Positions 4,808 through 62,929 of a DNA stretch of 64,000 nt are shown in pieces. Numbering within the stretch: position 1 is the stretch's first letter; the number at the start of each line of letters is the position of its first letter. The stretch lies in NCBI RefSeq assembly GCF_000814675.1, contig NZ_JWIG01000017.1, positions 1 through 64,000 of the forward strand, read 5' to 3'. The notes under the pieces are model-generated. The model was given only the letters and a program-made list of their open reading frames with translations. It did no database searches and was not told where the DNA came from. The DNA comes from Pseudoalteromonas distincta (GTDB lineage: Bacteria > Pseudomonadota > Gammaproteobacteria > Enterobacterales > Alteromonadaceae). The translations under genes were made by a program, and so were the position numbers.

Positions 4808-4894
4808 TGGTGCCCGAGGCCGGACTTGAACCGGCACGACTTGTTAGTCGAGGGATTTTAAATCCCTTGTGTCTACCAATTCCACCACTCGGGC
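4808..4894 (-). tRNA. leuZ: tRNA-Leu(UAA), copy 3 of 3
   Basis: 87-nt class II tRNA with encoded CCA (complement at 4808-4810). Acceptor GCCCGAG pairs with CTCGGGC; anticodon loop TTTAAAA gives UAA. Last gene of the eight-tRNA cluster downstream of pgsA. Confidence 0.95.
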
Positions 4895-4932
4895 ATCGAG
4901 TTTGCTAATTAAAGCGTGTGGAGTAAATTATA

Positions 4933-5006
4933 TGGAGGCGGAACCCGGAGTCGAACCGGGGTAAACGGATTTGCAATCCGGTGCATGGCCACTCTGCCAT
5001 TCCGCC
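4933..5006 (-). tRNA. cysT: tRNA-Cys(GCA), copy 2 of 2
   Basis: 74 nt including CCA. Acceptor GGCGGAA start; anticodon GCA in the loop. T-stem CCCGG/CCGGG is fully Watson-Crick, unlike the other Cys copy at 5541-5614. Confidence 0.95.
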
Positions 5007-5025
5007 TAAATATTTCCAAATAATT

Positions 5026-5101
5026 TGGAGCGGTACACGAGGCTCGAACTCGTGACCTCGACCTTGGCAAGGTCGCGCTCTACCAACTGAGCTAGTACCG
5101 C
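5026..5101 (-). tRNA. glyW: tRNA-Gly(GCC), copy 3 of 3
   Basis: 76 nt including CCA. Acceptor GCGGTAC; anticodon loop TTGCCAA gives GCC. Appears identical to the two other Gly copies in the cluster. Confidence 0.95.
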
Positions 5102-5150
5102 AAAATACTATTTTATCAACTTTAAATTATCTTGGTTAAATAATTTAAAG

Positions 5151-5237
5151 TGGTGCCCGAGGCCGGACTTGAACCGGCACGACTTGTTAGTCGAGGGATT
5201 TTAAATCCCTTGTGTCTACCAATTCCACCACTCGGGC
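5151..5237 (-). tRNA. leuZ: tRNA-Leu(UAA), copy 2 of 3
   Basis: 87 nt, same sequence as the other Leu copies by eye, CCA encoded. It sits between two Gly genes, with no Cys gene in this repeat unit. Confidence 0.95.
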
Positions 5238-5276
5238 ATCGAGTTTGCTATTTAAAGCAAGTGGATAAAACTAATA

Positions 5277-5352
5277 TGGAGCGGTACACGAGGCTCGAAC
5301 TCGTGACCTCGACCTTGGCAAGGTCGCGCTCTACCAACTGAGCTAGTACCGC
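5277..5352 (-). tRNA. glyW: tRNA-Gly(GCC), copy 2 of 3
   Basis: 76 nt including CCA; anticodon GCC. Forms a Gly-Leu unit with the Leu gene at 5151-5237. Confidence 0.95.
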
Positions 5353-5416
5353 ATCATATTAATTCTAAATTAACCATTTTATAAATTACACTTGGTAATG
5401 CAATTAAACCACAAAG

Positions 5417-5503
5417 TGGTGCCCGAGGCCGGACTTGAACCGGCACGACTTGTTAGTCGAGGGATTTTAAATCCCTTGTGTCTACCAATTCCACCACTCG
5501 GGC
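5417..5503 (-). tRNA. leuZ: tRNA-Leu(UAA), copy 1 of 3
   Basis: 87 nt including CCA; anticodon UAA. The spacer after its 5' end toward Cys nearly equals that of the copy at 4808, showing a duplicated Cys-Leu unit. Confidence 0.95.
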
Positions 5504-5540
5504 ATCGAGTTTGCTAATTAAAGCGTGTGGAGTGTTGAAA

Positions 5541-5614
5541 TGGAGGCGGAACCCGGAGTCGAACCGAGGTAGACGGATTTGCAATCCGGTGCATGGCCAC
5601 TCTGCCATTCCGCC
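5541..5614 (-). tRNA. cysT: tRNA-Cys(GCA), copy 1 of 2, variant T-stem
   Basis: 74 nt including CCA; anticodon GCA. It differs from the copy at 4933 at two positions; one turns a C-G pair of the T-stem into a U-G wobble. Still foldable, so probably functional. Confidence 0.93.
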
Positions 5615-5645
5615 CCAGTACGGGGTATTAACCTTAAGATAAACT

Positions 5646-5721
5646 TGGAGCGGTACACGAGGCTCGAACTCGTGACCTCGACCTTGGCAAGGTCGCGCTC
5701 TACCAACTGAGCTAGTACCGC
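5646..5721 (-). tRNA. glyW: tRNA-Gly(GCC), copy 1 of 3
   Basis: 76 nt including CCA; anticodon GCC. First gene of the cluster, about 115 bp downstream of the stable-RNA promoter at 5835-5862. Confidence 0.95.
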
Positions 5722-8354: not shown

Positions 8355-9005
8355 TTAGTACGAAACGTCTATATCAATCATTTTATGACGGATTGCTAAA
8401 TGGGTAAGCTCAACATCACCACCTACATTTAGCTTTTCAAACATACGGTAGCGATAGCTATTTACTGTTTTTGAACTTAGGTTTAAACGCTCAGCTATAT
8501 TTTGTGCTTTTTCACCTTTAGTGATCATAAGCATAATTTGCAGTTCGCGTTCAGATAAGCTCTGAAAAGGATTTTCGTCTGTACGACCTGTCACTTGCGC
8601 AAGTGCTATTTGCTGTGCAATTTCAGGGGCAATATAACGCTGACCGGCATGAACACAACGAATGGCACGCACCATTTCGTCAGAACCTGCACCTTTAGTT
8701 AAAAAGCCATGTGCACCAATTTGCATTACTTTACTCGGAAACGGGTCTTCACAGTTAACGGTAAGCACAATAATTTTTACATCAGGGCAGTAACGACAAA
8801 TCTTTTTAGTCGCTTCTAATCCGCCCATGCCTGGCATATTCATATCCATTAATACTATGTTTGGCGCATGCTGACGACAAAACTGTACAGCCTCTTCGCC
8901 AGTTTTAGCTTCACCAATTACTTTAAACCCTCGTACATCATCAAGAATACGCTTTATTCCTGTTCGTACAAGTTCATGGTCATCAACTAAAAGTACATTA
9001 ATCAA
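8355..9005 (-). CDS. uvrY: UvrY/GacA/VarA-family response regulator
   Basis: Response regulator of the BarA-UvrY (GacS-GacA, VarS-VarA) system, which activates transcription of Csr-type small RNAs. The 216-residue protein has a receiver domain with phospho-acceptor D54 and the acidic pair D8-D9, and a LuxR/FixJ-type HTH at about 148-205. The coding sequence begins with TTG, preceded by GAGGA; no in-frame ATG lies close enough to preserve the VDDH motif. It heads the uvrY-uvrC operon. The candidate CsrB RNA at 61481-62061 in this same window would be its main target. The cognate BarA kinase is not in the window. Confidence 0.93.
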   Translation of the reverse strand: MINVLLVDDHELVRTGIKRILDDVRGFKVIGEAKTGEEAVQFCRQHAPNIVLMDMNMPGMGGLEATKKICRYCPDVKIIVLTVNCEDPFPSKVMQIGAHGFLTKGAGSDEMVRAIRCVHAGQRYIAPEIAQQIALAQVTGRTDENPFQSLSERELQIMLMITKGEKAQNIAERLNLSSKTVNSYRYRMFEKLNVGGDVELTHLAIRHKMIDIDVSY

Positions 9006-51395: not shown

Positions 51396-51472
51396 TGGCG
51401 GAGTGGACGGGACTCGAACCCGCGACCCCCGGCGTGACAGGCCGGTATTCTAACCAACTGAACTACCACTCC
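51396..51472 (-). tRNA. aspV: tRNA-Asp(GUC), copy 7 of 7
   Basis: 77 nt including CCA. Acceptor GGAGTGG; anticodon loop CTGTCAC gives GUC. Last of the seven tandem copies in the transcription direction. Confidence 0.96.
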
Positions 51473-51526
51473 GCAGTGGTATGTGCATGGGGTAATGCAC
51501 TTACTAATTTTAATCATGATATCAAA

Positions 51527-51603
51527 TGGCGGAGTGGACGGGACTCGAACCCGCGACCCCCGGCGTGACAGGCCGGTATTCTAACCAACTGAACTACCAC
51601 TCC
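51527..51603 (-). tRNA. aspV: tRNA-Asp(GUC), copy 6 of 7
   Basis: 77 nt including CCA; anticodon GUC; same sequence as the other copies by eye. Confidence 0.96.
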
Positions 51604-51640
51604 GCAGAGATATCATTATACTTGTTATTACTTAATTTGT

Positions 51641-51717
51641 TGGCGGAGTGGACGGGACTCGAACCCGCGACCCCCGGCGTGACAGGCCGGTATTCTAACC
51701 AACTGAACTACCACTCC
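51641..51717 (-). tRNA. aspV: tRNA-Asp(GUC), copy 5 of 7
   Basis: 77 nt including CCA; anticodon GUC. Confidence 0.96.
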
Positions 51718-51755
51718 AGCATACAAATTTTGTAATATAACGTTGTTTAAATAGT

Positions 51756-51832
51756 TGGCGGAGTGGACGGGACTCGAACCCGCGACCCCCGGCGTGACAG
51801 GCCGGTATTCTAACCAACTGAACTACCACTCC
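51756..51832 (-). tRNA. aspV: tRNA-Asp(GUC), copy 4 of 7
   Basis: 77 nt including CCA; anticodon GUC. Confidence 0.96.
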
Positions 51833-51863
51833 AGCGCATATTTAAACTGTTATTTTTTCTTAT

Positions 51864-51940
51864 TGGCGGAGTGGACGGGACTCGAACCCGCGACCCCCGG
51901 CGTGACAGGCCGGTATTCTAACCAACTGAACTACCACTCC
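51864..51940 (-). tRNA. aspV: tRNA-Asp(GUC), copy 3 of 7
   Basis: 77 nt including CCA; anticodon GUC. Confidence 0.96.
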
Positions 51941-51981
51941 ATAATAAGAATATGTTTTACAACCATACGTTGTGTAAGTGT

Positions 51982-52058
51982 TGGCGGAGTGGACGGGACT
52001 CGAACCCGCGACCCCCGGCGTGACAGGCCGGTATTCTAACCAACTGAACTACCACTCC
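51982..52058 (-). tRNA. aspV: tRNA-Asp(GUC), copy 2 of 7
   Basis: 77 nt including CCA; anticodon GUC. Confidence 0.96.
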
Positions 52059-52085
52059 AGCTTTTACTTACAAGTTTTATGAAAA

Positions 52086-52162
52086 TGGCGGAGTGGACGG
52101 GACTCGAACCCGCGACCCCCGGCGTGACAGGCCGGTATTCTAACCAACTGAACTACCACTCC
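52086..52162 (-). tRNA. aspV: tRNA-Asp(GUC), copy 1 of 7
   Basis: 77 nt including CCA; anticodon GUC. First gene after the promoter at 52204-52232. Confidence 0.96.
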
Positions 52163-58466: not shown

Positions 58467-58916
58467 TTAAGCAGGTAGTTTTTCTAGCCATACTTTTAAC
58501 CAAGGCTCGGTTACTGGCCATGGTTCAAAATCTTCACATGCATCTATTTCTAGGCGGTTGCCCACAGGCTTTGCTTGTAAATCGCGTAGTAGCTCGTCAA
58601 AGCTTCGCCCTGCGCCACAAAATGTATCGCCGTAACATCTGTCACCCATTGCAATTACACCAAACGGTTTATCGGTAAGCATTGGGAAAGTGCTATTCAT
58701 TGCAAAGTACAATCCTGCCAAATTACTCGGTACATCACCTTGGCCTGTTGTGGAGGTAACAATTAAAATATGCGATGCATTTTTTATATCATCAAGTGAT
58801 GCTTCAGTAATTACTGTAGCAGTATGACCCGCTTGCTCTATTGTGGCTGCAACTTCATCGCTTAAACGCTCTGCACCGCCATTAACGCTGCCTACAAAAA
58901 TACTAATATGTGCCAT
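58467..58916 (-). CDS. yqcA: Flavodoxin-like protein (YqcA)
   Basis: A 149-residue FMN-binding flavodoxin: the short-chain motif VTSTTGQGDVPSN, the DRCYGDTFCGAGRSFDEL region and an FMN-binding opening ISIFVGSVNGGAERL. A longer frame to 58943 exists, but the ATG at 58914-58916 overlaps the truC stop (TAATG) and has AAAGGA upstream, so I choose it. Order yqcC-truC-yqcA is the same as in E. coli. Electron donor role unknown. Confidence 0.88.
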   Translation of the reverse strand: MAHISIFVGSVNGGAERLSDEVAATIEQAGHTATVITEASLDDIKNASHILIVTSTTGQGDVPSNLAGLYFAMNSTFPMLTDKPFGVIAMGDRCYGDTFCGAGRSFDELLRDLQAKPVGNRLEIDACEDFEPWPVTEPWLKVWLEKLPA

Positions 58917-59680
58917 TAATAATCCTTTTCTTGCTCTGGCCAACCTAGCTGCTTACATATTTCAAGCATGTCTTCACCTAGTGGCGCTTTAATTGTTATT
59001 GATTCATTACTATAAGGGTGCACAAAACTAAGCTCTGTTGCAAATAACATTAAGCGTCTTAGCTCAAAATGATCCCTAAAAAATTGATTATGCTGGTTAT
59101 CACCGTGATTTACATCACCAATGATAGGCAGTGATAAATGTTTTAAGTGTCTGCGAATTTGATGCTTGCGCCCGGTTTTTGGAAAACACTCAACTAACGA
59201 GTAACGCACTGTTGGATACTTACCAATAGGAATAGGCAATGCAGCTTGGTGCAAGCAATTAAACTGGGTTTGCGCTTCTTGCGGTGCTTTATCTTGATCT
59301 GCAAACTTATCGGCTATTTTATCAAGTTCTTCTTTAAGCGGTTTATCTAAAAATACTGACTCTGGTGCAAAACCGCGCACTAAGGCTAAATAGCGCTTAG
59401 CAATGGTACCTTCAATAAATAGCTGGTTCATATCGCGAGCAGCTTCCGAGCTCAATGCAAACAGTAATACGCCCGACGTAGGTCTATCGAGCCTATGTAC
59501 TGGAAATACATGTTGCCCTAGCTGGTCGCGCAACATTTGCATAGCAAACTGGGTTTCGTGTTTATCTAAAAACGAGCGATGCACTAATAAACCTGAAGGC
59601 TTATTTATAGCCACATAGTTTTCATCTTGATACAAAATAGTCAGCTCGCCATATTCAATAGGCGCTGGACGCTCACTCAT
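58916..59680 (-). CDS. truC: tRNA pseudouridine synthase C
   Basis: Makes pseudouridine-65 in the T-arm region of certain tRNAs. The 254-residue RluA-type synthase has the catalytic Asp D65 in VHRLDRPTSGVLLFA, an early INKPSGLLVHRS and the C-terminal KTGRKHQIRRHLKHL. It overlaps yqcC by 8 bp upstream and yqcA downstream, forming a three-gene operon. Confidence 0.95.
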   Translation of the reverse strand: MSERPAPIEYGELTILYQDENYVAINKPSGLLVHRSFLDKHETQFAMQMLRDQLGQHVFPVHRLDRPTSGVLLFALSSEAARDMNQLFIEGTIAKRYLALVRGFAPESVFLDKPLKEELDKIADKFADQDKAPQEAQTQFNCLHQAALPIPIGKYPTVRYSLVECFPKTGRKHQIRRHLKHLSLPIIGDVNHGDNQHNQFFRDHFELRRLMLFATELSFVHPYSNESITIKAPLGEDMLEICKQLGWPEQEKDY

Positions 59681-60097: not shown

Positions 60098-61126
60098 ATG
60101 AGTGATCAAATAGCTACATTAGGTCAGCTTTTAGATGGTGCGGGTACTCAGTGGCGTGCTTTTGATATTGGCAGGCACATTACTAAGCTTGATAAAAAAC
60201 AATTTTTAGCTATTGAACAAGCTCAAGTGCCTTACCCTTATCCACTTGCTGGTCATGCATGGCTCGCTATTCAATTTTGGGATACTAAAGCCAGTAAAGA
60301 ACCGTATGTATGGTTTTTAAAATTTCCACTTGATGAGCAAAGTATGCTGGTAAGTGCTAGTCGCGATCACTTTGCTGATATGGTTATTCAAGCGCTAGGC
60401 ACTGAAATTACAGGTGAGCAAGCCGATGGAAAACTTGATAATAACCCTTATGTTTTTACACCAAACGCAAATAAATTAGCGGCATTTAACGCCCAAGTAA
60501 AAGTACTATTAAAACAGCCTGCATCGCAGTATTACGAGCATGCACAACTGTACTTTAGCGGTAAAATTGGTTTTGATAATTGGCAAAGTGTTGCACTACA
60601 GGGTATTGCCGATTTTGCACTACGCTTAGACAGCGATACAAACTTAAGTAATCTGCAAAAAGCATGGGCGCATTTACCTATTGAAGTACTACAACCACTC
60701 AGTGCCATGCTTGAACACGTTGAAATACCAACATCAATGAGTGAGTTACTTGTTGATTACACGCAGGGTGCAATTAGTAACAACGACACAGTGGCTATAA
60801 CCGCAGCACTAAGATCAATTTCAAAAGGTCAAGCTCAAGGGTTATGCGCTCAATTAGTTGATACTGTACTAAGCTCACCAGTGAGGCACGACTCTGACGT
60901 GTTACTAACAATAGCTGGGCGGTGTTTTAAGCAATTAGAAAACCCTGAACGCTTACATGTATTTATGGATAATTGCGCGCATCATCAAAAAATTGAAGAA
61001 TTGTTTCCAAGTATTTTTGCTGACTTAGTTGCAATACCGACTATTCGCCCGCATTTATTAGGCTTATTACGTAAAGAAAATCGTAGCGAAACCCTCGCGC
61101 GTGCAATTGGAAGGTTATTCTCTTAA
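60098..61126 (+). CDS. DUF3549 family protein
   Basis: A 342-residue cytoplasmic protein of the DUF3549 family, found in this gene neighbourhood in Vibrio and Shewanella relatives. The N-terminal part is mixed alpha/beta (LGQLLDGAGTQWRAFDIGRHITKL, AWLAIQFWDTK, VWFLKFPLDEQ); the rest is helical with repeat-like segments (about 195-342), perhaps a HEAT-type array. No catalytic motif recognised. Its stop is immediately followed by the ATG of the next gene. Confidence 0.82.
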   Translation: MSDQIATLGQLLDGAGTQWRAFDIGRHITKLDKKQFLAIEQAQVPYPYPLAGHAWLAIQFWDTKASKEPYVWFLKFPLDEQSMLVSASRDHFADMVIQALGTEITGEQADGKLDNNPYVFTPNANKLAAFNAQVKVLLKQPASQYYEHAQLYFSGKIGFDNWQSVALQGIADFALRLDSDTNLSNLQKAWAHLPIEVLQPLSAMLEHVEIPTSMSELLVDYTQGAISNNDTVAITAALRSISKGQAQGLCAQLVDTVLSSPVRHDSDVLLTIAGRCFKQLENPERLHVFMDNCAHHQKIEELFPSIFADLVAIPTIRPHLLGLLRKENRSETLARAIGRLFS

Positions 61127-61426
61127 ATGGCAAGTTTATGGACGTTCATACTTATTGGTAGTGTAATTTACTTATTTTGGCTTAACCGAAAGGTTGCTGA
61201 AGCGGCGAACGTTCATGCTAAACGTCAAAGTGAGCAACTGCAGGTGCAGTTGATGAGTGTTGCATGCACAAAACGCCGCTTTGGTTTTTTAAAGAACGGC
61301 AAGCCAGGCATTAAAAGTGAATTTATATTTGAATTTTCAAGCGACGGTGAAAATGCTTATCAAGGTGTGTTAATTATGGAAAATGAGTTTTTGAAAAGTG
61401 TGGTTGTTCCACCCCATAAAATATAA
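61127..61426 (+). CDS. DUF3301 family membrane-anchored protein
   Basis: A 99-residue protein with one N-terminal membrane helix (LWTFILIGSVIYLFWL), a positively charged linker and a C-terminal beta-rich cytoplasmic part (GIKSEFIFEFSSDGENAYQGVLIMEN). Matches DUF3301. Its ATG follows the DUF3549 stop with no gap, so they are an operon. Function unknown. It converges with the CsrB-like RNA. Confidence 0.85.
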   Translation: MASLWTFILIGSVIYLFWLNRKVAEAANVHAKRQSEQLQVQLMSVACTKRRFGFLKNGKPGIKSEFIFEFSSDGENAYQGVLIMENEFLKSVVVPPHKI

Positions 61427-61480
61427 AACTTAATATACTTTAAGAGTATGTGTCTTAAATTAATAAATTTAATTCAACAC

Positions 61481-61510
61481 AAAAAACTAAGGCGTAACTA
61501 AAGTTACGCC
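61481..61510 (-). terminator. Intrinsic terminator of the CsrB-like RNA
   Basis: On the minus strand GGCGTAAC-TTTA-GTTACGCC (61491-61510) is followed by TTAGTTTTTT. Perfect 8-bp stem. Confidence 0.9.
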
Positions 61511-61600
61511 CCAATTGGACTGCATCCTGCTAGATATCCATTATCTTAAATCCGTATTATCATCCCCTGAACGAGTAAACAACCTTGTTTACCCTCACAT

Positions 61601-61925
61601 TGCATCCTGCAATATCCATAGCCACCTTGGCAAACCCACGAAATCTATCGTTTGGCTACATCCGTAGCATCATCCTTGGTAATCCTTTTAAGTAGCTCCT
61701 GCCACTTTTGCATCCTGCAATATCCATAGCCATCTTGGCAAACCCACGAAATCTATCGTTTGGCTACGTCCCGTAGCATCATCCCTGGTAATTCTTTAAA
61801 GTAGCTCCTGCCACTTTTGCATCCTGCAATGTCCACTTGCCATCTTGGCTGTCCTGCGTAAACTAACGCTCCTGCTACTTCCTGTAGCGTCATCCGTGAT
61901 TATCCTAAAGTAACTCCTAGCTACT
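61601..61925 (-). repeat. Tandem 108-109 bp modules within the CsrB-like RNA
   Basis: Copy 1 (61601-61708) and copy 2 (61709-61817) are almost identical, differing at about ten positions, and copy 3 (61818-61925) is a diverged version sharing the start (TGCATCCTGCAAT) and the later GTAGC-GTCATCC and AGTA-CTCCT landmarks. Each module carries about six to eight GGA motifs on the minus strand. Confidence 0.88.
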
Positions 61926-62068
61926 AAGTGCTTCATGCACTTCCTTATTCTTCCTTGTATCCGTTTTAGCTTGTCCTTTATGCTTCCTGCTAGCGTCTGC
62001 TATGTTGCCTATTCCGTATCCTTGGCAGTAACTCAATCATTGAGCTATGTCGTCTTGACAATGAGAAG

Positions 62069-62100
62069 TTTAAAGCAATCAGGGGGGAGAAATAGGACTT
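62069..62100 (-). promoter_or_regulatory. Candidate promoter of the CsrB-like RNA
   Basis: On the minus strand an extended -10-like TGC-TTTAAA (62069-62077) with no good -35 would give a start near 62061. A weak -35 fits an activator-dependent promoter. The assignment is tentative. Confidence 0.35.
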
Positions 62101-62217
62101 AACATTAAATAAATAAACGTCACAAAAATGAAAAAACAAAATAAACACTGCAGAACAATAACTTAGAACAAAAAAGGCTACTTATTAGTAACCTTTAAGT
62201 GACAATGCTTACGATGG

Positions 62218-62235
62218 TGTGAGATATATCTCACG
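62218..62235. promoter_or_regulatory. UvrY/GacA/VarA box
   Basis: TGTGAG-N6-CTCACG, an 18-bp inverted repeat with a perfect 16-bp palindromic core (GTGAGATA/TATCTCAC). It fits the established TGT(A/G)AG-N6-CT(T/C)ACA consensus. It lies about 165 bp upstream of the inferred sRNA start, comparable to the far-upstream location of the UvrY site at enteric csrB. Confidence 0.78.
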
Positions 62236-62275
62236 GTCTTATGTCCGTTTGGGCGCATTGGCTTACATTATAATT

Positions 62276-62929
62276 TTAAATAGCTGGCTCGATTATTGAT
62301 TTAAACAGTAACTCGCCCTCTACTTGGTTAAAAGTAAGGTGTTTAAATGCTTCAAATTTTTCAGTTTTAAAAAATTCAATGTGCTCCTTACGTGTTACAA
62401 ATACAGCCATCCCTGTTGACTCAGCGTTACATTTAACTAAGTCGTCAAGCCCGCGTAGTAAGTAACGACCAAAGCCTTGTCCATGAAAATGTGGGTCTAC
62501 GGCAATAAAAGCTAAAAAATAGTAATTGCCTTTTTGTTTAAGGGCGTCTCTAATTGTTTGTTCTTTATCTATTAATTGATTTGTTTGTAAGTAGCCCGCA
62601 CTCAGCATTAATTTTAAACGCCAGTGCCAATAACGCTGCGCTTGTAATTGGCTATTAGATTCAAATACACACGCTACTGCTTTTAATTTATCGTTGCGGT
62701 ATAAACCAATTAATGGCTGTTTTTCTTGCCAAAAACTACTGAGCTCTTCGCGAATTAATGATCGTAATTTTTTTTCGTAAACTGATTTATTTTCGTCATT
62801 GTAGCTAAGCATGTTTAGTAATACAGGATCGTCATGATAAGCCTGATAAATTAGGCTTGCTGCAGTACTAATATCTTCTGCAGCTAAATACTGTACGCTG
62901 AACGTATCAACTGGTGTGGTTACACTCAT
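62276..62929 (-). CDS. GNAT family N-acetyltransferase
   Basis: A 217-residue acetyltransferase with the acetyl-CoA-binding motif A as FLAFIAVDPHFHGQGFGRYLLRGLDDL (about 140-165; Q/R-x-x-G-x-G/A pattern) and a C-terminal FVTRKEHIEFFKTEKFEAF. Substrate unknown. It lies upstream of the CsrB-like RNA on the same strand with its stop 40 bp before the UvrY box; no terminator was seen between them, so low-level read-through into the RNA is possible. Confidence 0.87.
   Translation of the reverse strand: MSVTTPVDTFSVQYLAAEDISTAASLIYQAYHDDPVLLNMLSYNDENKSVYEKKLRSLIREELSSFWQEKQPLIGLYRNDKLKAVACVFESNSQLQAQRYWHWRLKLMLSAGYLQTNQLIDKEQTIRDALKQKGNYYFLAFIAVDPHFHGQGFGRYLLRGLDDLVKCNAESTGMAVFVTRKEHIEFFKTEKFEAFKHLTFNQVEGELLFKSIIEPAI

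Follow-up and report, generated by a model that had tools for sequence, protein, structure and literature searches.

Between its DUF3301 gene and a GNAT-type gene, Pseudoalteromonas distincta carries what we are highly confident is a gene for a CsrB-type sponge RNA, one that is both the Pf1 RNA of this genus and the positional orthologue of csrB, and whose presumed capacity has been evolving by modules. CsrB-type RNAs are textbook CsrA sponges. We refer to the whole 64,000-nt stretch of P. distincta DNA that was analysed as the window, in which the gene and its signals lie as follows.

61481 to 62061, minus strand: CsrB-type sRNA gene (Pf1/csrB orthologue), 581 nt with 30 GGA, its 3' end taken from the terminator and its 5' end putative
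61485 to 61516, minus strand: intrinsic terminator, a 14-pair stem and T run; in the genus alignment it is helix 13, with 99.3% of its cells paired
62067 to 62072, minus strand: TAAACT, a genus-conserved putative -10 element that did not come up in a consensus promoter scan
62218 to 62235, minus strand: GacA/UvrY box CGTGAGATATATCTCACA, a palindrome with its centre some 167 nt before the putative start

An earlier note on this DNA had described a gap without a plausible ORF, closed by a clean intrinsic terminator and holding about 30 GGA motifs in about 580 nt of its minus strand. We found that neither strand of 61427-62275 has an ORF reaching 60 aa, the terminator is present, and the minus strand of 61481-62061 contains exactly 30 GGA in 581 nt, the plus strand one. 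Dinucleotide shuffles of the same interval contain 15.3 +/- 2.7 (maximum 25, n=2000), and the second-densest 581-nt stretch in the window holds 17. The placement of GGAs in loops of perfect small stems was also borne out: eight lie in loops of perfect stems of at least four pairs, including TTGCA-GGA-TGCAA (three copies) and GCTACG-GGA-CGTAGC, whereas GGA-preserving shuffles give 2.0 +/- 1.4 and at most 7 (n=1000). When the minus strand is folded, the GGAs are mostly unpaired rather than base-paired, with 27 of the 30 having an unpaired probability above 0.5 in the predicted ensemble. A G has an unpaired probability of 0.77 inside GGA and 0.27 elsewhere, and the fold as a whole is more stable than those of shuffles (z -4.1). 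Judging from their positions, the GGAs are spaced 17 nt apart on average, which is near the 18 nt reported as the optimal site spacing for a CsrA dimer (PMC3856055). The comparison with the Rfam CsrB model (RF00018) that the earlier note had proposed gave a mixed answer, since a match exists in the window (27.4 bits, E 1.8e-5) but falls under the 71 bits that Rfam sets as its curated cut-off. At curated thresholds the RNA goes undetected, and Infernal by itself is therefore not decisive. The window RNA is assigned to csrB by position, its RF00018 score lying below that cut-off.

The secondary structure of the RNA is conserved and under selection. Across 20 species and the 70 pairs of the predicted fold, 98.1% of cells are paired, and sliding the alignment by 1-3 columns reduces this to 30-43%, a lenient control because the structure was derived from the same sequences. 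Double compensatory changes occur in 17 of the 70 pairs, against 10.0 in shuffles, and the best covariation evidence comes from helices 7 and 8, all of whose pairs have them. GGA columns are invariant in 75% of cases, compared with 33% of the other interior columns (p 4e-7). GGA density, fold, covariation, terminator and box agree with the CsrB-type RNA that had been proposed, and a CsrA-titrating RNA of this type is the best and a supported reading of the stretch, with CsrA binding predicted for the window copy. That the stretch is instead repetitive coding sequence, or an element acting at the DNA level, with no RNA gene would fit the regularity of its repeats, but we give this a negligible chance given the absence of an ORF of 60 aa, repeat periods (79, 109 and 124 nt) that are not multiples of three, the strand-specific motif, the covariation and the terminator.

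The 5' end of the window RNA was placed from the conserved block TAAACT-N7-GTCAAGA. Downstream of the box, this block (TAAACT-N7-GTCAAGANGACA) is taken as a probable -10 element and start, and a promoter consensus scan found no -35 element for the window RNA. The GacA/UvrY box at 62218-62235, like the tandem 109-nt repeat that is the source of the RNA's length, was absent from the earlier note. The box is kept in most relatives of the window locus, and the same type is present in several loci at the csrB place in other genera. In E. coli, the UvrY-bound site of csrB is TGTGAGAGATCTCTTACA, centred at -183/-182 (PMC4682653). The expected activator is encoded elsewhere in the window.

8367 to 9005, minus strand: UvrY/GacA-type response regulator, scoring 392.8 bits against NF007018 and passing its curated cut-off

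This RNA family has already been published. P. fuliginea BSW20308 has three Csr RNAs, Pf1, Pf2 and Pf3, with 25, 21 and 9 GGA, and Pf1 has the box CGTGAGACATCTCTTACA, demonstrated promoter activity, and the ability to antagonise CsrA in E. coli (PMC9927453, PMC11882849), where it raised glycogen synthesis as csrB does (PMC9927453). In the genome of another strain, P. fuliginea KMM 216, the box CGTGAGACATCTCTTACA occurs once, between the GNAT and DUF3301 genes, and the RNA downstream of it measures 472 nt and has 25 GGA, equal to the published Pf1 count; the window locus is 85% identical in DNA to this one. The shared place, the exact box and the 25-GGA relative in KMM 216 make the window RNA the orthologue of Pf1, the compared strain being KMM 216 and not BSW20308. 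The window RNA thus shares with Pf1 of BSW20308 an orthologous locus, the GacA box type and the architecture (PMC9927453, PMC11882849), while the KMM 216 copy has one module fewer than the window RNA with its 581 nt and 30 GGA.

Pf1 has been said to lack homologues outside Pseudoalteromonas, and a de novo origin has been suggested for it (PMC11882849). The genes around the window RNA bear on this question.

58467 to 58943, minus strand: yqcA (flavodoxin), from gene-order comparison with E. coli
58916 to 59680, minus strand: truC, from gene-order comparison with E. coli
59673 to 59999, minus strand: yqcC, matching the annotated E. coli yqcC beside csrB
60098 to 61126, plus strand: gene adjoining DUF3301, from the ORF list and neighbourhood comparison, provisionally labelled DUF3549
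61127 to 61426, plus strand: DUF3301 gene, a convergent neighbour retained throughout the genus and also outside it
62276 to 62929, minus strand: GNAT-type gene (the earlier note's label), upstream of the sRNA

In E. coli the order is syd-csrB-yqcC-truC-yqcA, all in one direction, with csrB directly upstream of yqcC. In the window the sRNA is followed by two convergent genes and then by yqcC-truC-yqcA in the sRNA's own direction, so that it lies upstream of these genes in the orientation of E. coli csrB with two convergent genes intervening, and the argument for orthology from yqcC synteny is upheld. In 10 other genera from 5 families, the stretch past DUF3301 has, on the strand corresponding to that of the window RNA, 17-29 GGA per 350 nt, and in five genomes of one non-Pseudoalteromonas family Rfam recognises a CsrB above cut-off at the equivalent spot. 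Because the order and orientation match those of E. coli and Rfam-recognised CsrBs occupy this place in another family, the window locus is orthologous by position to E. coli csrB, which goes beyond the literature searched. The link to csrB rests on position, box, orientation and architecture; we found no BLAST-level similarity of the window RNA to E. coli csrB. Many further genera have DUF3301 without a GGA-rich neighbour, which suggests that csrB was lost or moved there too. At the csrB place of some other genera, two to three successive GGA-dense peaks resemble tandem csrB genes (L117, L104, L091, L093, L094, L118, L125).

A Pf1 that arose de novo in Pseudoalteromonas and merely converged on csrB would account for the lack of detected similarity to Pf1 outside the genus (PMC11882849), and our own profiles of the 5' and 3' ends likewise recovered nothing comparable or convincing there. 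We nonetheless consider such an origin quite improbable. Ten other genera in 5 families, and E. coli, share the placement and direction of the locus with respect to yqcC-truC-yqcA and DUF3301, one of those families has an Rfam-recognised CsrB at the equivalent spot, and a matching UvrY box lies at a similar distance. Sequence similarity is also lost within the genus, where the homology of the ends is provable. Pf1 as a gene at the csrB locus, and probably no de novo gene, is thus a correction to the published picture.

Loss of similarity within the genus is apparent from BLAST, which recovers the RNA from 59 of 108 genomes, whereas DUF3301 is found in all 108. When the syntenic place was fetched in 40 of the 49 BLAST-negative genomes, 37 of the 40 had a GGA-rich gene there, and a profile of the 3' end of the window's clade recovers all 37 (E 9e-4 to 4e-17). 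Together these results indicate that the gene is the same one, masked by a fast-changing middle. A second correction follows, as Pf1 is present in nearly all sampled species and not in the 37.5% of genomes obtained by sequence search. Four Pseudoalteromonas genomes (L124, L150, L165, L171) have DUF3301 without an adjoining GGA-rich gene, and csrB/Pf1 has presumably been lost or moved there.

What varies in the middle of the gene is the number of tandem modules. In the window RNA, a tandem 109-nt repeat at 61600-61849 accounts for the length, and the RNA contains two 108-nt modules and one diverged copy, which is intermediate for the genus.

61601 to 61707, minus strand: second copy of the tandem module, sharing 95% identity with copy 1
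61709 to 61816, minus strand: tandem module copy 1, a 108-nt unit with 5-6 GGA
61818 to 61919, minus strand: older diverged module copy, about 78% identical

Across 73 Pseudoalteromonas loci measured from first GGA to terminator, the gene ranges from 308 to 1104 nt and from 18 to 75 GGA, with count following length at 12 nt per GGA (r = 0.985). On that measure the window RNA has 553 nt and 30 GGA, and 19 of the 73 are longer. The window RNA is therefore larger than E. coli CsrB (581 nt and 30 GGA against 369 nt and 22 GGA), as had been expected, yet of ordinary size for its genus. Species whose locus is 93-95% identical to it lack one of its modules (473 nt), and others measure 336-405 nt. One clade contains giants of 41-75 GGA (L133, L138, L139, L140, L142-L145, L147, L154, L155, L158, L166, which is cut by a contig end, and L170), in which four to nine modules of 79-88 nt follow one another without a break for up to 1.1 kb. 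Each giant has one terminator and, where found, one box, and its GGAs are mostly unpaired in the predicted fold. For several giants the assembly has just two or three contigs, making assembly error unlikely. The module types of 108, 124 and 79/87 nt have at most weak similarity to each other and fall in different branches of the neighbour-gene tree, which argues that growth occurred at least three times, and all carry 5-7 GGAs. Copies in the same array mostly resemble each other more than copies from different species do, pointing to homogenisation. The gene is thus an accordion, with fixed ends around tandem modules that are gained and lost whole. We did not find such a modular size series, or sponges of up to 75 sites, described within the literature searched. 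Between the sRNA and DUF3301, in the final part of the intergenic stretch, L051-L058 carry a perfect microsatellite with a 7-nt unit, whose copy number (5 to 22) varies among close strains.

Slippage and recombination make tandem repeats vary in copy number, and these arrays are homogenised within species, so the modules could be inert repeats, or could be bound by a protein other than CsrA, with extra copies leaving CsrA binding unchanged. We regard this as unlikely because module sequences that are unlike each other all have 5-7 GGAs, because GGA count follows length with r = 0.985, and because the GGAs of giants are mostly unpaired. We favour the reading in which the modules are CsrA-binding units, and the giants would then be transcribed, CsrA-binding RNAs with a capacity proportional to their length.

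Expansion appears confined to the csrB/Pf1 locus. All 108 genomes, including that of the window, have a single csrA. A second Csr-type RNA, probably Pf2, lies outside the window in the same genome.

L001:1287-1745, minus strand: second Csr-type RNA, beside an iron-type ABC binding-protein gene, with a box at L001:1883

The corresponding locus of KMM 216 has 23 GGA, compared with the 21 reported for Pf2. BLAST finds this second RNA in 48 of 108 genomes. Twenty BLAST-negative genomes, of which 14 carry giants, were inspected at the syntenic place, and all 20 proved GGA-rich there, with L199 the weakest at 13 GGA. Across the 14 with giants, the second RNA has 22-27 GGA. We had considered that giants compensate for a lost second Csr RNA, and rejected this given the GGA-rich stretch at its place in 20 of 20; a match of array size to csrA copy number was likewise set aside, csrA being single in all 108 genomes.

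The mechanism we propose begins with phosphorylated UvrY/GacA, which would bind the box at 62218-62235 and activate a promoter ending near 62060, the dependence on UvrY being presumed. Transcription of the window copy would yield a 581-nt RNA, predicted to fold into short hairpins with linkers, in which about 30 GGA are exposed. These may bind many CsrA dimers and so free CsrA-repressed mRNAs. This capacity would change whenever an entire internal module (about 108 nt) is gained or lost between the conserved ends, with more modules presumably holding more CsrA. On balance, we lean towards viewing Pseudoalteromonas csrB as a tunable CsrA buffer. One promoter and one terminator would flank a homogenised array, and its copy number (1-9 modules, 18-75 sites) would set the CsrA held per transcript. 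Such arrays would have arisen on at least three occasions from unlike modules, with no change in the second Csr RNA or in the number of csrA genes, which is one. On this view the giants would be the largest known Csr sponges. As a natural series of 18-75 sites in one conserved frame, with a single csrA throughout, these loci make the question of dose directly testable.

Growth by internal modules differs from what has been described for other Csr RNAs. E. coli CsrB (RF00018) resembles the window RNA as a GGA-loop sponge in its order and orientation toward yqcC-truC-yqcA and in having a UvrY box far upstream; unlike the window RNA it has 369 nt and 22 GGA, DUF3301 and its neighbour gene are not inserted, and sequence similarity is undetectable. 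CsrB1 and CsrB2 of Shewanella oneidensis are also Csr RNAs with upstream UvrY boxes, and are UvrY-dependent, but they are two adjacent whole genes of about 420 bp, so that the gene and not an internal module was duplicated (PMC3171408). The csrB duplications of Vibrio similarly represent copy-number evolution of Csr RNA genes, but by whole-gene duplication and relocation, with no internal-module growth of one RNA (PMC6262261). Elsewhere in the window, at 51399-52162 and 4811-5721, are two arrays of near-identical tRNA genes, with seven in one cluster and eight in the other.
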